Shown piece by piece: positions 2,494-38,285 of a stretch of DNA of 44,255 nt. The notes under the pieces were generated by a model. That model was not told where the DNA came from. It made no database searches and was given only the letters and a program-made list of their open reading frames with translations. The translations under genes were made by a program, and so were the position numbers. Each line of letters begins with the position of its first letter. Position 1 is the stretch's first letter. This stretch comes from Candidatus Thalassarchaeaceae archaeon (GTDB lineage: Archaea > Thermoplasmatota > Poseidoniia > Poseidoniales > Thalassarchaeaceae). The stretch covers positions 1 to 44,255 of the forward strand of contig JAQXEV010000072.1 in NCBI GenBank assembly GCA_029250665.1, read 5' to 3'.

Positions 2494-5400
2494 ATGCCAA
2501 AAATCGAGTATGTGGATGATTCTTGGGATACCGAGCAATTGCTCGAAAGTCTTTCACCACCTGTGCGCAACTGGTTCAAGGACAAGTTCCCTGACTTCAC
2601 CGAACCTCAGAAACTTGCAATACCACGTATTCTCAATGGCGAACATCTCTTGCTTTGCTCGCCTACAGGGTCTGGTAAAACACTGACAGCTTTCTTGACG
2701 ATTATCGACGATCTTGTGCGTAAATCGTTAGATGGTTCACTAGGTAATTCGGTTCAGTGCGTTTACATCTCACCAATCAAAGCACTGGCAAATGATATTC
2801 AGAAAAATCTCATTGGTCCTTTGACTGAGATTCGAGAACGTTACCTACCTGGTAGGGCGAAGGAAATCAAGGTTGGTTTGAGGACAGGAGATACAAGTCG
2901 GAAGGAACGTGAAAGGATGCTTCGTAAGCCTCCTCACATACTTATTACGACTCCTGAATCGCTTGGATTGGCTTTGGCTTCGAAGCGCTTCAGGCCTTTG
3001 CTCAATGACCTCCAATGGATGATTATCGATGAGATGCATTCACTGGTGCCGACTAAGCGAGGCACTCACCTTGCTCTGAGCCTTGCTTTGATGGATAGTG
3101 TAATCGATTCCCATGTGCAGCGAATCGGAATATCGGCTACGATGGAACCGTTGGATGCGGTTGCCGAATTCTTGGTTGCCAGCGATTCTCGTGAAAGTGA
3201 TACAGAGCCCCAGCATGTTGCGATTGCGAAGGTATCTGGGTCGAGGCGTCTCGACCTAGACATCATCCTCCCGACGCCTCGATTCTCATCTTTGCCGGTT
3301 AAGGAAATCCTCGACCACAATGTCGATCGCATCAAAGAAATCATCGAGGCTCACACGACGACATTGGTCTTCGTCAATACTCGACAGATGACCGAGACGG
3401 TAGTTCAGAAGCTGAAGATTCTCGGAACAGAAGGAGTTGAAGGGCATCACGGTTCTATGGACAAAGCCATTCGTCTCGATGTCGAGCAGCGCTTGAAGAA
3501 TGGATTATTGCGCAGTGTCGTATCATCATCTTCTCTCGAAATGGGTATCGATATTGGTTCCGTAGACTGTGTCGTTCAGGTGGGCAGTCCTGGTTCTATT
3601 GCCACAGGATTGCAGAGGATTGGACGTGCAGGTCACCAAGTCGACGGACTGCCGCGAGCGCGATTGTTACCAACATCTCCGCAAGACTTACTCGAAATGG
3701 TATCGTTACAAAACGGCATCTTACGGGGATCAATGGACCTACTAAAATTTCCACAAAACTCTCTCGACGTGCTTGCGCAATTCTTGATTGGTCTGACCAT
3801 CATCAGGGAGTGGGACATAGATGAGGCATACGAACTTGTGACTGCGGCTTGGCCTTATCGAGAATTACCATATGATGATTTTATCGAGGTTCTTGACTTA
3901 CTCGAGGAGGAACGCCGAGTCTGGGTCGATTGGGAAGAAAATCGCTTCGGGAAGCGTGGTTATGCGCAGATGATTTACTACACCAACATAGGCACCATCG
4001 CTCCCAGCAATAACTTCCTCGTTTTCACCTCAGACGGAACTCTCGTCGGTCAATTATCCGGTGGATTCGTTGCGAGCCTTCGGCATGGGGATGTCTTCTT
4101 GCTTGGAGGTTCGACATACCGAGTTTCCAGCATTCGAGGAACCCGAGTGAATGTCACTTCAGCTACGGGCTACCGCCCGACGATACCATCGTGGGCGGGT
4201 GAGGCAAATAGCCGAACTAACGAACTGAGTTACGAGGTTCTTGACGTGCTTGAGCGATCATCGACTATGGTGCGAATGGGGCGAGACGTCCGTCCATTGT
4301 TGACGGATGTCTATGGATTGAATAGGCCTGTGGCGAATGCTCTGGCGAATTATCTTGATGAGCATTGTGCGACCACTTTCCAAGTTCCTAACCGCGACCG
4401 GATTATCGTTGAACAGGTCGCTGGCCCGCTTCCAACTTACATCGTGACTACTTGTCGTGGTCGCGCGTTCAATCTCGCACTCGGCTATCTATTCGCTGGA
4501 ATTGCCGTGCGTGACAACATAATCGTCAATGAAATATCATTCGATGAAAATGGCTTCATGATCAAACTGAGTCATGAGGTTGAGATTTCGAAAATCCCTG
4601 AATTATTCAAGGATGGTTCGAGTCGAGAGGTTCTTCAGCGATACATGCTCGACTCGCAACTTTTTGCTAAGAGATTCCGTGAGGTATCGAGCCGAAGTAT
4701 GCTGAATCCTCGACGTATAGGTGCGGAAGAGGTCAGTCCAAAGCAATTCCAGAATCGCGCGGAACAAATCTTGCGTGCTCATCGGCAAATGGAGGATTCA
4801 GTACTCATCCGTGAGGCGATGAGTGAGATTCTAACCAGTGACCTTGAGATGAATGAACTCTCTGATTTCATTTCGCGTATGGACAGCGAGAATGTCAGAA
4901 TCGTCCATCGAAAGGTGAAGATGCCTTCTCCTTTGGGAATGACTCTCTTCATGTCCTCATTCGAGGATTTACTGAGTTTGAGGACTCGAGCTTATCTGAT
5001 CAAGGATATCGACCCTGAGATTCTTCGTCGATTGCTTGGCGCACGTTCGTTAGCAACAGATCTCGACCGTGAGAGGCTTGGTCAGTATTACCAAGACAAG
5101 GTCGCAGTGCCGGACTCTGCAATGGGCCTGTTGAGGCTGATGGACATGGGTGGTGGATTAGAGAAGACATTGATCCATCCACTATATTCCGAGAAACTCA
5201 AGAGTCTCGAGTTCGATCAACTGCGTGCTTGGGTCCACGAACTAGCTGAGCGTGGACTGATTACCAAGGTGCGTAATACTGGTCATTCACAGATTGATGA
5301 CAAATGGTTCTCGGAACGCATGGCTGGCGTGCACGGTACTCTCGGCTGTCTTGCCGCCTCCGGTGCAGATGAGATGGATGATTTACGCGCCCTCTATACT

Positions 5401-7785
5401 GGCGGCCTGACCTTTGACATAGGAATGGATTTCATAGCTGGTCAGGCCAAAACTTGGAAACAAACTTCACTTTCTGATCCAATCGATTGTCTTCGCCTCA
5501 AACTACTCGATATGCTGGGCTCTGAGGGACCTCGAACCCTGGATAAATTGGCAGACAGGCTTCCCTTCCCACGAGCCCAGGTTGAGTCGGTTCTGCAAGA
5601 ACTCGAAATGCGCAACCTTGTCTCAATCGGCTTCTTCACACAGACCAACGATGGAGAATACATCCTGCGTGTCGATGAATATCGCATCACTGGAGGGCAG
5701 GTTGAGGTTGTAGATTATCGAACTCTTCAGACATTGATTCTCCACAAGTCGTTCCAGCAATACGAAGAGCCGGCTGAGGCGATTCGTAACCTAATTCTCG
5801 TCCAACGCCGCGACGAGATGTTACATCGGGTGAAGGATTACAGATTCCGTGATTGGAAGGATATCAAACACGATCCGGATGTCATTAACGGACGCTTACT
5901 GCATAATCGAGTCGGCTATACAATGGAAGATCAATTGCCTATTGTCCTCGGTTTGCGAGGAGACCCTTGGATTGGTCCTCTAGAAGAGGAATTACTGGCG
6001 AAAATTCCGAAGGATGGAATGAGCAGGATGGAACTCTTCGCCGATTACCCGAAGGGCAAGGACCACGTGCATATTCAGCGCTCATTGAAGAGTGCCTTGG
6101 GTAACCTCGAACGTCAATTACTAATCGGAAAGAAATACATCGAATTACCGAATCGAAAGCGCTCGCTCGCAGTCTTCCATCGGATTCACGAGCGCGTTAA
6201 ACCGATGAAATTTGATGAGGCAGTCAAGAACCTCATCGAGAGGATTGGTCCAGTCAGACTCCATACTTTGCGTTTCTTTGTCTCGCGACCAGTCGAAGAA
6301 TTGGCCGAGGTTCTTCGCGATCTCGAAAATTCGGACCGAATTGTCCGCATAGTCGCTCTGCAACCTGATCCGACTGATTATTACTCAAGCCATGAGGATG
6401 CGGAGAAACTCCTCTCGCCTATGGCTGAGGATCGTACCATGCGTATACTCTCCCAGTCGGACCCGTTCTGTTCCCGCTTCATTCAAGAGGTTCGACTTAT
6501 GCTCAAACAGGGATGGTATCATCCTGTTTTCAAGGGGGTAGATCCAGTAGGTCGAATCCTCATGTTTGTCGTAAATGATTACCTTGAAATCAAGGATATC
6601 AACATCCCTCACTCCTACCTTGACGAATTCAAGGACACTTTCGACGAGCTATTGGAAAATTATCGGGACAGGCTCGTCGACGTATCGGTGATTCACGCCT
6701 TCAACGGTGTTCCAGTCCACGATTGCGATGAGAATGTTCAGCAAATATTGGCGGATCTTGGCTTCGAATCGATGGGTGATGAGGAGCGCTATATTCGTGG
6801 AGGTGTAGTTGATCCGATGCCGCGGAAGAAGATTAATCGCATTCTTTTCCATCATCATTCACTGCATCAGAAAACTCGCTTCGAGAATGAAACCATGGCG
6901 CTTGAACACTTAGAAGAATTGCGCGATGATTTTGCTCTACGTGGTCGCTGTGAAATGTTCCGAGTTGATCTCAAATCGATGGCTGCTGCCCACCAACTCC
7001 ACCAAGGAACCAACCTTCGTGGCCACCTAGTCTGGGCGCGAATGACTCACTTCCAGAGACTGCTGACAATAAGGAACGTACCTGCTCCAGAGGAAGATGA
7101 GGATATTTTGCAATTCTTCCGCGAGCACCACGATCCAACCATATTCATGGAAAGGCATGCGATGAAGCGCGGCGAATTCCGCAAACTCATCTCGCCGCTG
7201 GTAAGAAGTGGGCATCTTGTTCAGGATTACCGTGGTGGCTTCAAAGCCGTCGAACCGCTTCGCGATTCTGATCTTTGGGAGGTCAAACGCGATTACCTGA
7301 GAGACCTTGTTCAGCATTATCCAGTAATCACTCTCAAACAAGTCGAGAGGCTCGCGGGTTCACCATTCTCGGCGGAAGAAATTTCAGATGTGATGCGAGA
7401 ATTCGAAGAGGATGGAACTCTCATCAAAGGTTTCCTCGTCGATGATATGCACGATGTATGCTGGGGCCGACATGCATTATTGGAAGGGACAGATGCAATC
7501 ACTCGCACGCGTGACCTTGTAATCCCTCCTTCTGACCCACTAATCCACTACTTCGGCAGTCTGCTTCGTGAGAGATTTGGCTACGGCTCGGCATACCTTG
7601 TATTCCATCGCGAAGAGCCAGTAGCCGCATTCAAAGCAAATACTCGAGAGGGTGTGATTCACATTACTGATTTCGTTGGCGATTCGGACCTTGAGAAAGA
7701 GGCTCTGCGAGTTATGAAGGAATTCGCTTGGGAGCACGATATGCCACTGCGTGGGAAATTGTACGAGCGATTACGAACCCGTTGA
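2494..7785 (+). CDS. lhr: Very large Lhr-type superfamily 2 DEAD/DEAH helicase with long C-terminal extension
   Basis: 1763-aa ORF; LLCSPTGSGKTLTAFL (motif I), IIDEMHSL (II), GISATMEP (III), TLVFVNTRQMTE, SSSLEMGIDIGSVDCVVQVGSPGSIATGLQRIGRAGHQ (V/VI); C-terminal winged-helix-like segments. Confidence 0.93.
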   Translation: MPKIEYVDDSWDTEQLLESLSPPVRNWFKDKFPDFTEPQKLAIPRILNGEHLLLCSPTGSGKTLTAFLTIIDDLVRKSLDGSLGNSVQCVYISPIKALANDIQKNLIGPLTEIRERYLPGRAKEIKVGLRTGDTSRKERERMLRKPPHILITTPESLGLALASKRFRPLLNDLQWMIIDEMHSLVPTKRGTHLALSLALMDSVIDSHVQRIGISATMEPLDAVAEFLVASDSRESDTEPQHVAIAKVSGSRRLDLDIILPTPRFSSLPVKEILDHNVDRIKEIIEAHTTTLVFVNTRQMTETVVQKLKILGTEGVEGHHGSMDKAIRLDVEQRLKNGLLRSVVSSSSLEMGIDIGSVDCVVQVGSPGSIATGLQRIGRAGHQVDGLPRARLLPTSPQDLLEMVSLQNGILRGSMDLLKFPQNSLDVLAQFLIGLTIIREWDIDEAYELVTAAWPYRELPYDDFIEVLDLLEEERRVWVDWEENRFGKRGYAQMIYYTNIGTIAPSNNFLVFTSDGTLVGQLSGGFVASLRHGDVFLLGGSTYRVSSIRGTRVNVTSATGYRPTIPSWAGEANSRTNELSYEVLDVLERSSTMVRMGRDVRPLLTDVYGLNRPVANALANYLDEHCATTFQVPNRDRIIVEQVAGPLPTYIVTTCRGRAFNLALGYLFAGIAVRDNIIVNEISFDENGFMIKLSHEVEISKIPELFKDGSSREVLQRYMLDSQLFAKRFREVSSRSMLNPRRIGAEEVSPKQFQNRAEQILRAHRQMEDSVLIREAMSEILTSDLEMNELSDFISRMDSENVRIVHRKVKMPSPLGMTLFMSSFEDLLSLRTRAYLIKDIDPEILRRLLGARSLATDLDRERLGQYYQDKVAVPDSAMGLLRLMDMGGGLEKTLIHPLYSEKLKSLEFDQLRAWVHELAERGLITKVRNTGHSQIDDKWFSERMAGVHGTLGCLAASGADEMDDLRALYTGGLTFDIGMDFIAGQAKTWKQTSLSDPIDCLRLKLLDMLGSEGPRTLDKLADRLPFPRAQVESVLQELEMRNLVSIGFFTQTNDGEYILRVDEYRITGGQVEVVDYRTLQTLILHKSFQQYEEPAEAIRNLILVQRRDEMLHRVKDYRFRDWKDIKHDPDVINGRLLHNRVGYTMEDQLPIVLGLRGDPWIGPLEEELLAKIPKDGMSRMELFADYPKGKDHVHIQRSLKSALGNLERQLLIGKKYIELPNRKRSLAVFHRIHERVKPMKFDEAVKNLIERIGPVRLHTLRFFVSRPVEELAEVLRDLENSDRIVRIVALQPDPTDYYSSHEDAEKLLSPMAEDRTMRILSQSDPFCSRFIQEVRLMLKQGWYHPVFKGVDPVGRILMFVVNDYLEIKDINIPHSYLDEFKDTFDELLENYRDRLVDVSVIHAFNGVPVHDCDENVQQILADLGFESMGDEERYIRGGVVDPMPRKKINRILFHHHSLHQKTRFENETMALEHLEELRDDFALRGRCEMFRVDLKSMAAAHQLHQGTNLRGHLVWARMTHFQRLLTIRNVPAPEEDEDILQFFREHHDPTIFMERHAMKRGEFRKLISPLVRSGHLVQDYRGGFKAVEPLRDSDLWEVKRDYLRDLVQHYPVITLKQVERLAGSPFSAEEISDVMREFEEDGTLIKGFLVDDMHDVCWGRHALLEGTDAITRTRDLVIPPSDPLIHYFGSLLRERFGYGSAYLVFHREEPVAAFKANTREGVIHITDFVGDSDLEKEALRVMKEFAWEHDMPLRGKLYERLRTR

Positions 7786-25307: not shown

Positions 25308-27572
25308 ATGGGCCGTAAGGAAGACAACATCGCAAGAGCGACCGAAGTCATGCACACCCGAGAGCGAATTCGCAACCTTGCGATTGCTGCTCACATCGAT
25401 CATGGTAAGACTACGCTCTCAGACAATTTGATAGCTGGCGCTGGAATGATGTCTGAGGACCTCGCAGGTAAATCTCGTGTCCTTGATTTCGATGAGCAAG
25501 AGAGCGCTCGCGGTATCACAATCAACGCAGCAAGTGCTTCTATGGTTCACGCTATTCAGGAAGACGATGGTGATGGCAACCTTGTCTGGGAGGACACGGA
25601 AAAAACCAAGCCGAAGACAAATGATTACCTGATTAATCTCATTGATACACCCGGTCACGTCGACTTCGGCGGAGACGTTACTCGAGCTATGCGTGCTGTC
25701 GATGGATGTATCATCCTCGCTTGTGCAGTCGAAGGAACCATGCCTCAGACTGAGACTGTGGTTCGCCAGGCTCTGAAAGAGAAGGTCCGCCCTGTTCTTT
25801 TCATCAACAAGGTTGACCGCTTGATTAACGAATTGCAAATCGATGGACCAGAGATGATGCAGCGTTTTGAAAAGATTATCCTCAAGGTCAACAAACTAAT
25901 CCAAACTTTCGCTCCTCCAGAAGTCGCAAAGGATTGGCAAGTCAGTGTTGCTGCTGGAACTGTTGCATTCGGTTCTGCGTACTACAATTGGGGAATGTCC
26001 ATTCCTTACATGAACAGGACCGGCCTGAACTTCAAAGATATCTTTGAACACTGCGCTAATGACGACCAGAAGGCTCTTTCAAAGAAGGCTCCAGTTCACG
26101 AGGTTCTTCTCGACATGGCTGTCCAACAGCTTCCTTCCCCGATCGTGGCACAGAAGTATCGTATCCCTAACATATGGCAGGGTGATCTTGAGACAATTGA
26201 GGGCAAGGCGATGCTTGAGTGTGATTCCGAAGGACCTCTATCTCTGATGATTACCAAAATTTGGATGGACCCTCACGCAGGGGAGGTTGCAGTCGGCCGA
26301 GTCTATTCAGGCTCTATCAAACACGGAGAATCTCTCTGGGCTATCGGCGGCGCTAAGGCTGAGCGAGTTCAGCAAGTCAGTATGATGGTTGGCAGTGACC
26401 GAATTCAAGTTTCACATGTCAGTGCTGGAAACATCGCCGCAATAACTGGAATTCGTAGTGCTGCAGCCGGTGTAACAATCGCTCGAGAAAAGGATGCTGA
26501 GCCATTTGAGGCAATCCGCCACTACTCTGAACCAGTCGTTACCGTTGCTGTCGAACCGAAGGCGATGAAAGATCTCCCGAAGTTTATCGACGCTTTGCGC
26601 GGATTGGCTAAGGCCGACGCATCTCTACAAGTTTCCACCAATGCTGAGACAGGTGAGGCTTTGCTTGCTGGTATGGGTGAGTTGCACCTTGAAATTACCG
26701 TTTATCGCCTTGAAGAGGAACAGGGAATCAAGGTCAAGGTCAGCGAACCTATTGTTGTTTACCGTGAGTGTATTGAATCGAATAATGACGGCCGAGCATT
26801 TGAGGGCAAGTCTCCTAACCGTCACAACAGATTCTACATCGAGGCTGAGCCTCTCCCAACTGATGTCATCCAAGCTCTACGCGAGGGTCACTTCGGCGAC
26901 GGTACTGTACGCAACAAGGACTCGAAGTCCGTCGGAGACAAGTTCGCTGAATTCGGAATGGAGAAGAATTTGATGCGTAAGATCTACGCAATCAATGGAA
27001 CAAACGTACTCGTCAACGATACAAAGGGTATTCAGAACTTGCACGAGACTCGGGAACTCATCATTGAGGGCTTCAACGAAGTCTGCAAGAAAGGCCCTCT
27101 CGCCGAGGAGCCCCTAATGGGAGTCATGATGCGACTCGTCGACGCAAAGTTGCACGAAGATGCAATTCACCGTGGTCCCGCTCAAACTATCCCAGCTGTT
27201 CGTAACGCCTGTCGTGGTGCACTAATCCGCTCTCGTCCAGTTGTTCTTGAGCCAATGCAGAATATCCGCATTGACGCTCCTAACGACGTCATTGGCGGCG
27301 TTACTCGCGAGGTTACCACACGCCGTGGAGTCATCGAGGACATGCCAGTAGATGGTGGCACAGCCTCAGTCATCGGAAAGATGCCAGTCGCAGAGACATT
27401 CGGATTCTCCAACGATATTCGCGCAGCCAGTCAGGGTCGCGCAGTATGGAACACTGAGAATGCCGGATTTGAGATTTTGCCAATGGCACTTCTTGAGAAG
27501 ACAGTCGGAGAGATCCGTGAGCGCAAGGGCCTGAAGCCTGAGATCCCTGGTGAAGCTTACTACCTCGATTGA
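25308..27572 (+). CDS. fusA: Translation elongation factor 2 (archaeal EF-2)
   Basis: 754 aa; IAAHIDHGKTTLSDNLIAGAGMMSEDLAGKSRVLDFDEQESARGITINAA, LIDTPGHVDFGGDVTRAMRAVDG; diphthamide-site motif LHEDAIHRGPAQTIPAVRNACRGAL. Confidence 0.97.
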   Translation: MGRKEDNIARATEVMHTRERIRNLAIAAHIDHGKTTLSDNLIAGAGMMSEDLAGKSRVLDFDEQESARGITINAASASMVHAIQEDDGDGNLVWEDTEKTKPKTNDYLINLIDTPGHVDFGGDVTRAMRAVDGCIILACAVEGTMPQTETVVRQALKEKVRPVLFINKVDRLINELQIDGPEMMQRFEKIILKVNKLIQTFAPPEVAKDWQVSVAAGTVAFGSAYYNWGMSIPYMNRTGLNFKDIFEHCANDDQKALSKKAPVHEVLLDMAVQQLPSPIVAQKYRIPNIWQGDLETIEGKAMLECDSEGPLSLMITKIWMDPHAGEVAVGRVYSGSIKHGESLWAIGGAKAERVQQVSMMVGSDRIQVSHVSAGNIAAITGIRSAAAGVTIAREKDAEPFEAIRHYSEPVVTVAVEPKAMKDLPKFIDALRGLAKADASLQVSTNAETGEALLAGMGELHLEITVYRLEEEQGIKVKVSEPIVVYRECIESNNDGRAFEGKSPNRHNRFYIEAEPLPTDVIQALREGHFGDGTVRNKDSKSVGDKFAEFGMEKNLMRKIYAINGTNVLVNDTKGIQNLHETRELIIEGFNEVCKKGPLAEEPLMGVMMRLVDAKLHEDAIHRGPAQTIPAVRNACRGALIRSRPVVLEPMQNIRIDAPNDVIGGVTREVTTRRGVIEDMPVDGGTASVIGKMPVAETFGFSNDIRAASQGRAVWNTENAGFEILPMALLEKTVGEIRERKGLKPEIPGEAYYLD

Positions 27573-27624: not shown

Positions 27625-29322
27625 TTAGTTGATTCTAACGAGTTGGAAGTCTGTCATATCTCGCAGAAGTTCAACTGCCGGCGATTCATTTAGAGAATCG
27701 AGGCAGTCGTGAGCGATTTTGTGGTGTTCCATGGCTCTGTCGAGGGCATAGCGAATCGAACCATTCTCTTCTAATTCAGCAACAGCGTTTGCCAATTCTT
27801 CATTCGGGTCTGACTCTGTGCCGAACAATTTGCGAAATGTCGGTAGGTCAGCCCCACTCTCAAGTGCATGGATAGCAATCAGTGTGCGCTTGCCCTGAAC
27901 GATATCAGAGCCAGCCGGCTTACCCAGTGTCTCTGTATCGCTGACCATATCGATATAATCGTCCATAATTTGGAAGCACAGACCCAAATTGAGGCCCCAC
28001 TTAGCCATGTTATCGACGGTCTTACTATCAGCACCAGCCAGAATCGCTCCGGTTTCAGCACAAGTTTCGAACATTGCACTGGTTTTACCTGCGATCATCG
28101 CGATGTATTCATCCTCGGAGACAGTATCACGATCCTCGAATTCGAAATCTTCCTGTTGGCCCTCGGCAACTCGCCTTACCATTTCGCCAATGGTACTGAC
28201 GACGTGGCGAAGTTGTGAGTCTTCGATGTGCTCGCTATCGGCGAGCATCTCGAAGCCTAGGGCAAGCATGGCATCGCCTGCATTAATCGCAGTCGCATCA
28301 TCATAGGCGATGTGCACAGCATCTAATCCGCGGCGTATTGGATCTTGATCCATTATATCGTCATGAACCAAAGTGAAATTGTGTATGATTTCGATACAAG
28401 CTCCTAACGTGTAATGACCTTCATGGCCATTCCCAACAGCATCACCTACGAGGCGTGGCATAATTGCACGCAATCTTTTGCCACCACCGGTGAAAAGGTG
28501 TGACATAGCGCCTCGCAGTCGTTTTTGCTGAATCTTTCTAAGATTCTCCTGAATGACTCCTTCGACGATGTCGCGGTGTTTTCCCAAAGCGGCTAGGACA
28601 TTAGCAGCAGAATCAGAGGGATGCGTCACGGACAATTCCCCACACCTGATTATGTCCGTGCGTGCATTAGAGATTACTTCATCGATGTCTGCATCGCCCC
28701 CATCTAGGTAATTATCGAATATTGCCTCAAACCATGGCGCAACCAATTGGCTCTTCCATCGTCCTTGTCGCGCCATCATTGCTTTCAATCCAGCATCATC
28801 CAACCAATCGATGGCTTGAATCTCATTTCGGTTGAAATCAACTTCACAATCAGCCTTCACAATCATCACGTGATCAATCTCATGTTCGACCCACTCTGCA
28901 TTCCACCGACACTTGTATTCAAATCGGCCAATATGATTGAAATCCCACGAGTCAGTAACTGAGCGAGGGATGCCAAGTTCTTGCTCTAATTTTCGCCGTG
29001 CAGCCTCTTTTACTCCCTCGACCGCATCCCCATTTTCTCCGGCTATGTCCAGAGGATGACTGCAACACGAATTAGCCCAGACTCCTGGAAATGTGATTTT
29101 CTCAGAGGCACGTTGTTGGACAAGAAGACGGCCGTTTGAATCATAAATCAGCACACTGAAAGCACGGTGGCGAATACCCTCTCCAAGATGTGTCTGTAAT
29201 TTGCTTGCCGTATCAATCACAGCATCGTCCTCATCGAGACAGAGGCAAGCCTCTGCCATCATCCCAGCTTGGGATGAGTCGTGCGCGGTGAGTGCGCGGT
29301 CTGAATCAGACATATCTCTCAA
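27625..29322 (-). CDS. Fusion protein: type I isopentenyl-diphosphate delta-isomerase (Nudix) + trans-prenyl diphosphate synthase (GGPPS-like)
   Basis: 565 aa; N-half HRAFSVLIYDSNGRLLVQQRASEKITFPGVWANSCCSHPLDIAGENGDAVEGVKEAARRKLEQELGI; C-half GGGKRLRAIMPRLVGDAVG, LVHDDIMDQDPIRRG (FARM), LCFQIMDDYIDMVSDTETLGKPAGSDIVQGKRT (SARM). Confidence 0.94.
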   Translation of the reverse strand: MRDMSDSDRALTAHDSSQAGMMAEACLCLDEDDAVIDTASKLQTHLGEGIRHRAFSVLIYDSNGRLLVQQRASEKITFPGVWANSCCSHPLDIAGENGDAVEGVKEAARRKLEQELGIPRSVTDSWDFNHIGRFEYKCRWNAEWVEHEIDHVMIVKADCEVDFNRNEIQAIDWLDDAGLKAMMARQGRWKSQLVAPWFEAIFDNYLDGGDADIDEVISNARTDIIRCGELSVTHPSDSAANVLAALGKHRDIVEGVIQENLRKIQQKRLRGAMSHLFTGGGKRLRAIMPRLVGDAVGNGHEGHYTLGACIEIIHNFTLVHDDIMDQDPIRRGLDAVHIAYDDATAINAGDAMLALGFEMLADSEHIEDSQLRHVVSTIGEMVRRVAEGQQEDFEFEDRDTVSEDEYIAMIAGKTSAMFETCAETGAILAGADSKTVDNMAKWGLNLGLCFQIMDDYIDMVSDTETLGKPAGSDIVQGKRTLIAIHALESGADLPTFRKLFGTESDPNEELANAVAELEENGSIRYALDRAMEHHKIAHDCLDSLNESPAVELLRDMTDFQLVRIN

Positions 29323-29381: not shown

Positions 29382-30173
29382 TCAAAGCATGATTCGCGTG
29401 CCGCGAGTAGTACCATCGTCGAGTAATTGTATTACACGGTCGGTTTTCCTTCCATCGAGGAACCAAACGTGTTCGACATTTTGTGCGATCATTGCTGCAC
29501 TCTCAAGTTTGAGGAAAATCCCTCCAGTTACATCTTGAGTAGTATCGTGATCTCCAGAAATTTCATGACTTGGCTTCCAAATTGGGATTAGTTCTGCTGA
29601 GGGGTGAGAAGGTGGTGCACTGAGTAGTCCTTCTGTGTCTCCAAGTAGGAATATACAGTGTGTGATTGATTCTGATTCTTGGGCGATTCGGACCATCAAA
29701 TCGTCTCCAGAGAGGATTCCGAATCGCTTTGGTGGGTCGCAGTCCACTACATCACCAAAGGTGACTGCGACGATATCTGTTGGGCAATTTGTAATTGGCG
29801 TGAGTGAGCCGGTGAAATTAGGTCCAGTTTCACGTGCCCATTGCGAGGGAGGAAGGTTTCGTATCTCGATGTTTTGTTGTTCAAGGGCTTCGCAGAGAAT
29901 TGAATCTAGTTCGAGCATATCTTCTCGAATTGAATCGACTGCGAGGATTTGTTCGGTCAGAATTGCCTCGTCAGCACCTTGAGCGATTCTCCACTTCTTG
30001 GCTTTTAGATGACCAAATGATCCCGCCCCGTGAACTATTGTGAGAGCATGGCCTTGCGAAATGAGTTGATGAGTCAAGTTCGCGAGATTTGTGATGACAT
30101 CGGCGTCGGCTGTCTTCATTGCAGACTTGTCGGTAATCAAGCCGCCTCCGAATTTGATGAGCAGATGAGCCAT
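29382..30173 (-). CDS. ipk: Isopentenyl phosphate kinase
   Basis: MAHLLIKFGGGLITDKSAMKTADADVITNLANLTHQLISQGHALTIVHGAGSFGHLKAKKWRIAQG; FGILSGDDLMVRIAQE; amino acid kinase fold. The ORF extends to 30191; ATG 30173 is the better start. Confidence 0.93.
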   Translation of the reverse strand: MAHLLIKFGGGLITDKSAMKTADADVITNLANLTHQLISQGHALTIVHGAGSFGHLKAKKWRIAQGADEAILTEQILAVDSIREDMLELDSILCEALEQQNIEIRNLPPSQWARETGPNFTGSLTPITNCPTDIVAVTFGDVVDCDPPKRFGILSGDDLMVRIAQESESITHCIFLLGDTEGLLSAPPSHPSAELIPIWKPSHEISGDHDTTQDVTGGIFLKLESAAMIAQNVEHVWFLDGRKTDRVIQLLDDGTTRGTRIML

Positions 30174-30272
30174 CTTCGTCAGGCCTGCCACGTGGCTCGC
30201 CTCTTTGGCTTATGCGGCTGAGCGATATCTAGGATAGGTCACCTTCATTGCCTTCGGTTGCCTCGCGAATTC

Positions 30273-36528: not shown

Positions 36529-37467
36529 TCAGACCAAAGATTCGCTCGCGGCGATGATCGCTTCAGTGGTAAGTCCTACCATTTCCAACAATTCTTCACT
36601 ACCGCCACTCTCGCCGAAACGATCCTGAACGCCTAGCATTTTGATTTTGGTAGGATTGGTCTGTGAGAGATGTTCGGCAACTGCTGATCCCAATCCTGCA
36701 ATCACCGAATGATCTTCGACTGTGACGATACCTGAGCATTCTCTCGATAAACGATCGAGAAGTTTTGTATCCAGTGGTTTCAATGTGTGCATGTCTACAA
36801 CCGTCGCATCGATTCCTCGATTTGAGAGCTCTTCTGCTGCATTCATCGCTTTATGGACCATTACGCCGTTAGCGATTATCGCTACATTACTGCCTGTTCG
36901 GAGAACAGACCCTTTTCCTATTTCGAGGGAATTTACTGTATTTTCGTTATACATTCTTGGGGTTTTGTTACGAGCTGTGCGAGTGTATGATGGCGAGTCA
37001 TGGTTGAGTAATGCTGCTGTTAGCCGACGAGCTGATAGGTCATCACATGGGTGCATGACAGTCATTCCGGGTATTGTACGGTACAACGCGAGGTCTTCGA
37101 TTGATTGGGCGCTTGATCCGTCGGTACCGGTGTGTATGCCACCGTGACTTCCACAGATGTGGACAGTGAGTCCGGGTCTCGCTATTCCATTCCGTACTTG
37201 TTCGAATGCACGTTCAGAGAATATTGCAAATGTGCTTGCGAACGGAACTTTGCCGCAGGATGCAAGTCCAGCTGCTACTAACATCATGTTCTGTTCAGCG
37301 ATACCTAGCGATATCGTCCTCTCCGGGTATTTTGCGCGGAAGAGGCAGGACTTTGTTGATTTTCCAAGATCGGCCTCAAGGACTACTACGCGCGGGTCGT
37401 TTGCTATTTCGAGAAGGGCGGCACCGTAGCCATCCCTACTCGCGCCACCGGTGGAAGGTGCACTCAT
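36529..37467 (-). CDS. Transketolase, C-terminal subunit (split)
   Basis: 312 aa; RVVVLEADLGKSTKSCLFRAKYPERTISLGIAEQNMMLVAAGLASCGKVPFASTFAIF, IVTVEDHSVIAGLGSAVAEHL. Confidence 0.93.
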   Translation of the reverse strand: MSAPSTGGASRDGYGAALLEIANDPRVVVLEADLGKSTKSCLFRAKYPERTISLGIAEQNMMLVAAGLASCGKVPFASTFAIFSERAFEQVRNGIARPGLTVHICGSHGGIHTGTDGSSAQSIEDLALYRTIPGMTVMHPCDDLSARRLTAALLNHDSPSYTRTARNKTPRMYNENTVNSLEIGKGSVLRTGSNVAIIANGVMVHKAMNAAEELSNRGIDATVVDMHTLKPLDTKLLDRLSRECSGIVTVEDHSVIAGLGSAVAEHLSQTNPTKIKMLGVQDRFGESGGSEELLEMVGLTTEAIIAASESLV

Positions 37468-38285
37468 GCTAATTCCTCCATTGCTTGGGACAATTCTTCA
37501 TCACTGGGTGCTTTTCCATGGAATGCAGGATTATCCTCCATAAATGAGACTCCTTTGCCTTTCACAGTATGAGCAACGATTGCATTAGGTCCTGGGGTAT
37601 TAGCAGCCCAATTCAGAGCTTCGACTACCTGTTCCATATCATGTCCATCGATTTCTTTCACAGACCATCCGAATGAGTTTATTTTACTCGCTATATCTCC
37701 GATCTCCATTTGTACATCTACAAAGTCATCGTTTTGTATTCTATTACGATCGACGATTACGTGCAGGTTCTGAATTTCATGATAACTCGCTGCCATGAAG
37801 GCTTCCCAAACTTGCCCTTCCTGAGTTTCACCATCACCAATCATGACCCAAGTATGGAATTCTTGTTCGTTTAGTCGGGCAGCAAAGGCACAACCTAAAC
37901 CGAATGACAAACCCATGCCTAGGCTGCCAGCTGAGAAATCAACTCCATTGGTCCACTTCATGTCTACGTGGCCCTGACAGACTGACCCCATTGTACGGAA
38001 TCCATCCAAATCAGACTGCGAAAGGAAGCCCATTTCGTGAAGGATTGAGTAAACTGCAGGTGACGCATGCCCTTTGCTCATAACGAAGCGATCCCGTTCT
38101 CCATTGTTTGCATCATCCGGTGAAACTGACATTTGCGTTGAATACAATCCAACTAAGAGGTCGATTGCAGAAAGGGATCCACCAGGGTGTCCTGCTCCGG
38201 CTTTGTGAACCATGTCTACAATTGCTCGCCGACACCTCTTGGCGCGTTCATTCAACTCGCTGAGTGGAATCGGCTCCGCTGACAC
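37464..38285 (-). CDS. Transketolase, N-terminal (ThDP-binding) subunit (split), GTG start
   Basis: 273 aa; KAGAGHPGGSLSAIDLLVGLY, FVMSKGHASPAVYSIL, GSLGMGLSFGLGCAFAARL, VMIGDGETQEGQVWEAFMAA; 4-bp overlap with the C subunit. Confidence 0.94.
   Translation of the reverse strand: MSAEPIPLSELNERAKRCRRAIVDMVHKAGAGHPGGSLSAIDLLVGLYSTQMSVSPDDANNGERDRFVMSKGHASPAVYSILHEMGFLSQSDLDGFRTMGSVCQGHVDMKWTNGVDFSAGSLGMGLSFGLGCAFAARLNEQEFHTWVMIGDGETQEGQVWEAFMAASYHEIQNLHVIVDRNRIQNDDFVDVQMEIGDIASKINSFGWSVKEIDGHDMEQVVEALNWAANTPGPNAIVAHTVKGKGVSFMEDNPAFHGKAPSDEELSQAMEELA

Follow-up and report, generated by a model that had tools for sequence, protein, structure and literature searches.

Marine Group II (Ca. Poseidoniales) comprises uncultured archaea that are among the commonest in the sea. 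The nearest known analogue of the gene described here, the IDI-SQS of diatoms, likewise carries an IPP isomerase (IDI) and a downstream enzyme of isoprenoid metabolism in one polypeptide, but the partner in diatoms is squalene synthase (SQS) and the host is a eukaryotic alga, whereas here a prenyl diphosphate synthase is fused and the host is an archaeon. The archaeal GGPP synthases (GGPPS) of Pyrococcus horikoshii (1wy0) and Geoglobus acetivorans (5jfq) are standalone proteins. A bacterial origin has been reported for the type I IDI (IDI1) of haloarchaea and thaumarchaea (PMC3533463). In Marine Group II, G1P dehydrogenase has been reported missing (PMC6962369), and these archaea have been argued to produce either mixed lipids or none of the archaeal lipids known so far (PMC6962369, PMC6461757). 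A literature search of partial coverage found no published description of an IDI-GGPPS fusion, nor are isopentenyl or mevalonate genes discussed in the main text of major Marine Group II genome papers. The fusion, a conserved architecture of two known enzymes, is apparently undescribed.

The window, a stretch of 44,255 nucleotides from a Candidatus Thalassarchaeaceae archaeon, belongs to an assembly of 1.48 Mb that is 91% complete. The fused IDI1-GGPPS ORF occupies positions 27625..29322 of the minus strand and encodes 565 aa when read from TTG 29322. Translation more likely begins at the ATG at 29313 (codon 4; 562 aa), since a similar MS../MA.. stretch opens the homologues. Residue numbers below run from the TTG, and the numbering of the 38-sequence alignment is 3 lower. 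The motifs TFPGVWANSCCSHPL, DDIMDQD and DDYID are all found in the translation. The frame is open in 37 aligned homologues of 47–89% identity, which excludes a chance ORF, and all 38 aligned fused proteins, at identities down to 47%, share the same catalytic and metal-binding residues in both domains. The preliminary description had proposed a natural fusion of a type I IDI with a GGPP-type synthase in an archaeon, and this is borne out by an intact single ORF with both sites complete. Its coordinates for the ORF were exact and the strand, then unstated, is minus; an upstream isopentenyl phosphate kinase (IPK) gene and a second, standalone prenyl synthase had been overlooked.

The distribution of the fusion was surveyed in 119 genomes of the class, comprising 98 Poseidoniales genomes, from the families Thalassarchaeaceae (MGIIb) and Poseidoniaceae (MGIIa), and 21 genomes of the sister order, which is probably Marine Group III. 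A single frame runs across the joint in 89 of the 98 Poseidoniales genomes (83 full length and six cut at contig ends), representing both families and 19 of the 21 genera. A stop or frameshift between the domains, which the preliminary description had named as grounds for refutation, is absent from almost every independent assembly. A genome assembled as one contig of 2.06 Mb (G024) has the intact frame, as does AH-287-M04 (L203), apparently a single-cell genome; the named records with the fusion also include Ca. Thalassarchaeum betae and many Ca. Poseidoniaceae. Among the remaining Poseidoniales genomes, one has separate genes (G117), one is cut before the joint (G064) and seven are without the locus. 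Both the fusion gene and the adjacent IPK gene are missing from G010, G019, G063, G072, G076, G094 and G119, the EF-2 gene was likewise missing from G094 in the search, and in G081 the IPK gene lies at a contig edge. Since IPK, where tested, was likewise missing or cut by the end of a contig, the seven absences of the locus are likely to reflect missing sequence and not gene loss. Elsewhere in the phylum sample, IDI1 was found above the cut-off only as standalone frames of 176–240 aa; the five genomes concerned belong to two further families.

The type I (Nudix) IPP isomerase domain (28720..29247, minus strand; residues 26–201) passes the curated cut-off of TIGR02150 (NCBIfam IPP_isom_1) with 142.4 bits against 105.8. 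It possesses the conserved IDI residues H45, H52, C87 (CCSHP), H89, E115, Y136, E146/E148 (EHE) and W197, among which the roles of the catalytic Cys (CSHP) and Glu (ExE) and of the metal-binding His and Glu residues are presumed from those in the E. coli and human enzymes. The best match of the domain is human IDI1 (138 bits; E=3e-39 to the structure 2icj), with E. coli IDI at about 50 bits. The fold (TM 0.89 to 2i6k) and the catalytic residues are common to human IDI1 and the domain described here, which differs in its archaeal host and in the fusion of its C terminus to GGPPS. The IDIs of the sister order are 48–53% identical to human IDI1. A tree of 38 IDI rows, in which human is the sole eukaryote, placed Poseidoniia and human IDI1/2 in one clade (100/100) with the other sampled prokaryotic IDI1 proteins outside it. 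A pattern-based scan of a genome collection with a human-led query ranked Poseidoniia top by similarity to human IDI1 among the matches listed, with Aenigmatarchaeota, Nitrospirota and Bacteroidota ranking lower. A bacterial origin of the domain was considered and rejected, plasmid-borne bacterial IDI1 being about 29–34% identical and lying outside the human-Poseidoniia clade. Thus, of the earlier suggestion that the domain came from bacteria or eukaryotes, the eukaryotic type stands and the bacterial source does not. Unlike the IDI1 of haloarchaea and thaumarchaea, the eukaryote-type IDI1 of Poseidoniia points to gene transfer between archaea and eukaryotes, in either direction. As a separate observation, many E. 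coli plasmids carry idi beside or overlapping a gene annotated as 'class 1 isoprenoid biosynthesis enzyme', which may be a parallel case in bacteria.

The trans-prenyl diphosphate synthase domain of GGPPS type (27775..28524, minus strand; residues 267–516) matches Pfam polyprenyl_synt PF00348 (5.2e-67). Its first aspartate-rich motif (FARM), DDIMDQD (28342..28362, minus strand), and its second (SARM), DDYID (27949..27963, minus strand), are both invariant in the alignment. The domain shares its fold (TM 0.92) and both motifs with the GGPPS of P. horikoshii and G. acetivorans, with the difference that an IDI domain precedes it. Its closest NCBIfam families are the archaeal IdsA and GGPP_syn, without a match at the strict equivalog level (IdsA_Meth, 278.7 bits against a cut-off of 468; GGPP_syn, 250.7 against 500), and because these cut-offs are missed the C20 product is something that we infer. 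The residue at −5 from the first Asp motif serves as a chain-length rule, Phe being of the C20 type. F316, five residues before DDIMDQD, is invariant in the 38-sequence alignment, whereas the second, standalone prenyl synthase of the genome, on contig C108, has Ala at −5 and not Phe; the contrast suggests that the fused domain makes C20. The C108 synthase adjoins a gene which we take to be geranylgeranyl-reductase-like, and this neighbour together with the Ala at −5 indicates that the second synthase is probably a longer-chain enzyme.

The IPK gene (29382..30191, minus strand; NF040647, 138.4 bits, cut-off 120) is the next gene upstream of the fusion and runs in the same direction, with 68 bp separating it from the likely ATG. 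It was found upstream of the fusion in the examined loci of both families that have enough flank. The convergent neighbour on the other side encodes translation elongation factor EF-2 (25308..27572, plus strand; TIGR00490, 997 bits), used as a species-tree marker. A member of the AcnX-type archaeal phosphomevalonate dehydratase family is also found in the window's genome, and with both this family and IPK encoded, the route from isopentenyl phosphate to IPP and on to DMAPP and GGPP is coherent. A profile search found one IDI1 copy in the genome, and type II IDI was above the curated cut-off in none of 60 genomes of the class; a standalone IDI besides the fusion was thus looked for and none was detected. 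As no other IDI was detected and the second synthase is probably of longer-chain type, this genome probably depends on the fused protein alone for DMAPP and GGPP. Some other Thalassarchaeaceae genomes possess an additional standalone IDI1-like Nudix protein scoring 57–76 bits, under the IDI1 cut-off (G006:C11, G015:C18, G022:C34, G043:C14, G076:C12 and G090:C79). Elsewhere in the window, positions 2494–7785 of the plus strand encode a Lhr-type helicase of 1763 aa with a very long C-terminal part, residues 1221–1325 of which give a weak match, under the cut-off, to an AlkZ-like DNA glycosylase.

Taken together, it is highly probable that the fusion of Ca. Poseidoniales is a genuine bifunctional enzyme that makes GGPP from IPP alone and was born from overlapping genes. 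The neighbouring IPK would deliver IPP, the N-terminal eukaryote-type IDI1 would isomerise a part of it to DMAPP, and the C-terminal archaeal GGPPS would use DMAPP as primer and add three IPP to give the C20 GGPP, which would pass mainly into isoprenoid ether lipids. The final lipid is uncertain, because G1P dehydrogenase has been reported missing (PMC6962369). The fused IDI-GGPPS beside IPK is the probable origin of the C20 chains of Marine Group II. The benefit of the fusion may be a fixed 1:1 expression or a local supply of DMAPP, and true substrate channelling, which the preliminary description had proposed, is no more than a possibility. Within each domain the AlphaFold model has high confidence (mean pLDDT 88.7), and its folds match those of human IDI1 and archaeal GGPPS. 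The relative placement of the domains is uncertain (pTM 0.67) and the confidence is lower in the linker (pLDDT about 58 near residues 231–240), so that the model does not lend structural backing to a channel. The linker is also variable in sequence among fused proteins. This variability and the low model confidence, as well as the persistence of related lineages with separate genes, suit another explanation, namely that the fusion serves co-expression or stability only and that its domains work independently, with neither channelling nor a proximity benefit. The chances of this explanation seem evenly balanced. Against it, almost every genus of this varied order has kept the fusion, which is compatible with an advantage of some kind without pointing to a particular one.

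The unfused relatives encode both proteins in identical order, which makes the route of fusion visible. In the sister order the IDI and GGPPS genes are separate and collinear, and they are adjacent in 17 of the 21 genomes. At the nine junctions read, the IDI stop overlaps the GGPPS start as ATGA (4 nt) in most and as TAATG in two. The genus g20 of Poseidoniaceae also has separate overlapping genes. All five of its genomes are alike in this and have IPK upstream, so the unfused state is a lineage trait; separate genes therefore do occur, in g20 and in the sister order, in a consistent manner and not as an artefact. Thus the relatives make two polypeptides from genes that meet at ATGA, TTGA or TAATG, where one polypeptide is made here. 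One sister-order genome, G060, with 6% contamination, carries two IDI-GGPPS gene pairs (G060:C1 and G060:C14), one of which may be foreign. In the window itself, transketolase is split between two neighbouring half-genes that overlap by 4 nt (36529–37467 and 37464–38285, minus strand), and the boundary between them resembles the unfused IDI-GGPPS arrangement of the relatives.

A conserved HxMGEV or KGEL-like tail closes the separate IDIs, and its codons form a purine-rich stretch immediately ahead of the start of GGPPS; in the unfused relatives these codons probably hold the ribosome-binding site for the GGPPS gene that follows. The tail is kept in the fused proteins, as CGELS in the window and MGDV in Poseidoniaceae, and is followed by a short linker into GGPPS. 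The codons for CGELSV (28627..28644, minus strand) match the C-terminal tail of the separate IDIs. Because of this retention, the joint looks like a fossil of the former gene boundary, and two neighbouring genes overlapping by about 4 nt (ATGA) would have been joined into one. The species tree of EF-2 and RpoB placed g20 as sister to the other Poseidoniaceae (100/100), and the IDI-GGPPS tree grouped it weakly with this family (61/26), requiring a minimum of two changes between the fused and unfused states. AU tests rejected neither a clade of all fused lineages (p 0.40) nor one that holds every lineage except g20 (p 0.34), so that the present states may have come about by one fusion with a later fission, by two fusions, or by one fusion with g20 basal.

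The joint also bears on an explanation with two products, in which the full-length fusion is accompanied by free GGPPS made from a surviving ancestral internal start, so that the fusion tunes stoichiometry and does not channel. The joint of the Poseidoniaceae genes has the in-frame form (A)TGGGTGATG-N8-ATG, with ATG kept in 36 of 38 genes and TTG in one. A predicted anti-SD pairing at least as strong as −6 kcal/mol occurs in the joint window of 80% of 74 genes, against 37% of control windows, and the Gly-Asp of the joint is encoded by GGTGAT in 23 of 38 cases, against 40 of 126 elsewhere. However, MGDV may be kept for protein reasons, the genes counted are non-independent samples of shared ancestry, and the internal site is weaker in Thalassarchaeaceae, including the window, with TTG or GTG; SD-led internal starts in these archaea are, besides, an assumption. 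A second product of this kind is accordingly unlikely. Equally tentative is a composite account: a self-priming GGPP synthase of eukaryote-type IDI1 and archaeal GGPPS, possibly fused twice, independently in each family, out of a gene pair with coupled translation, with a persisting internal start that may still yield free GGPPS. That one domain is degenerate, leaving the gene only a GGPPS or only an IDI, is very improbable, as the expected residues of both domains are invariant in the 38 sequences and no other IDI was detected. A frameshift or assembly artefact is still more remote and is ruled out by the open frame in the 89 genomes, many of them independent assemblies: a single one of 80 named loci (L189) looks split, with an N gap exactly at the joint, and the one contig from a Rhodobiaceae bin (L169) is probably misbinned. 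The latter contig (CALDQY010000021.1), filed under an uncultured Rhodobiaceae bacterium, has the IPK-fusion arrangement of Poseidoniaceae, hence this assignment.

The bifunctional enzyme proposed here would be a natural counterpart of the fusions that pathway engineers make artificially, and the gene order provides a clear before-and-after case of fusion. Close relatives offer both the fused and the overlapping-gene states, so that the advantage of fusion is open to a direct test. A further difference from the diatom IDI-SQS lies in the relation between the joined activities: the SQS of the diatom fusion does not use the product of IDI directly, whereas the GGPPS of the Poseidoniales fusion would take up DMAPP from the isomerase to which it is joined.
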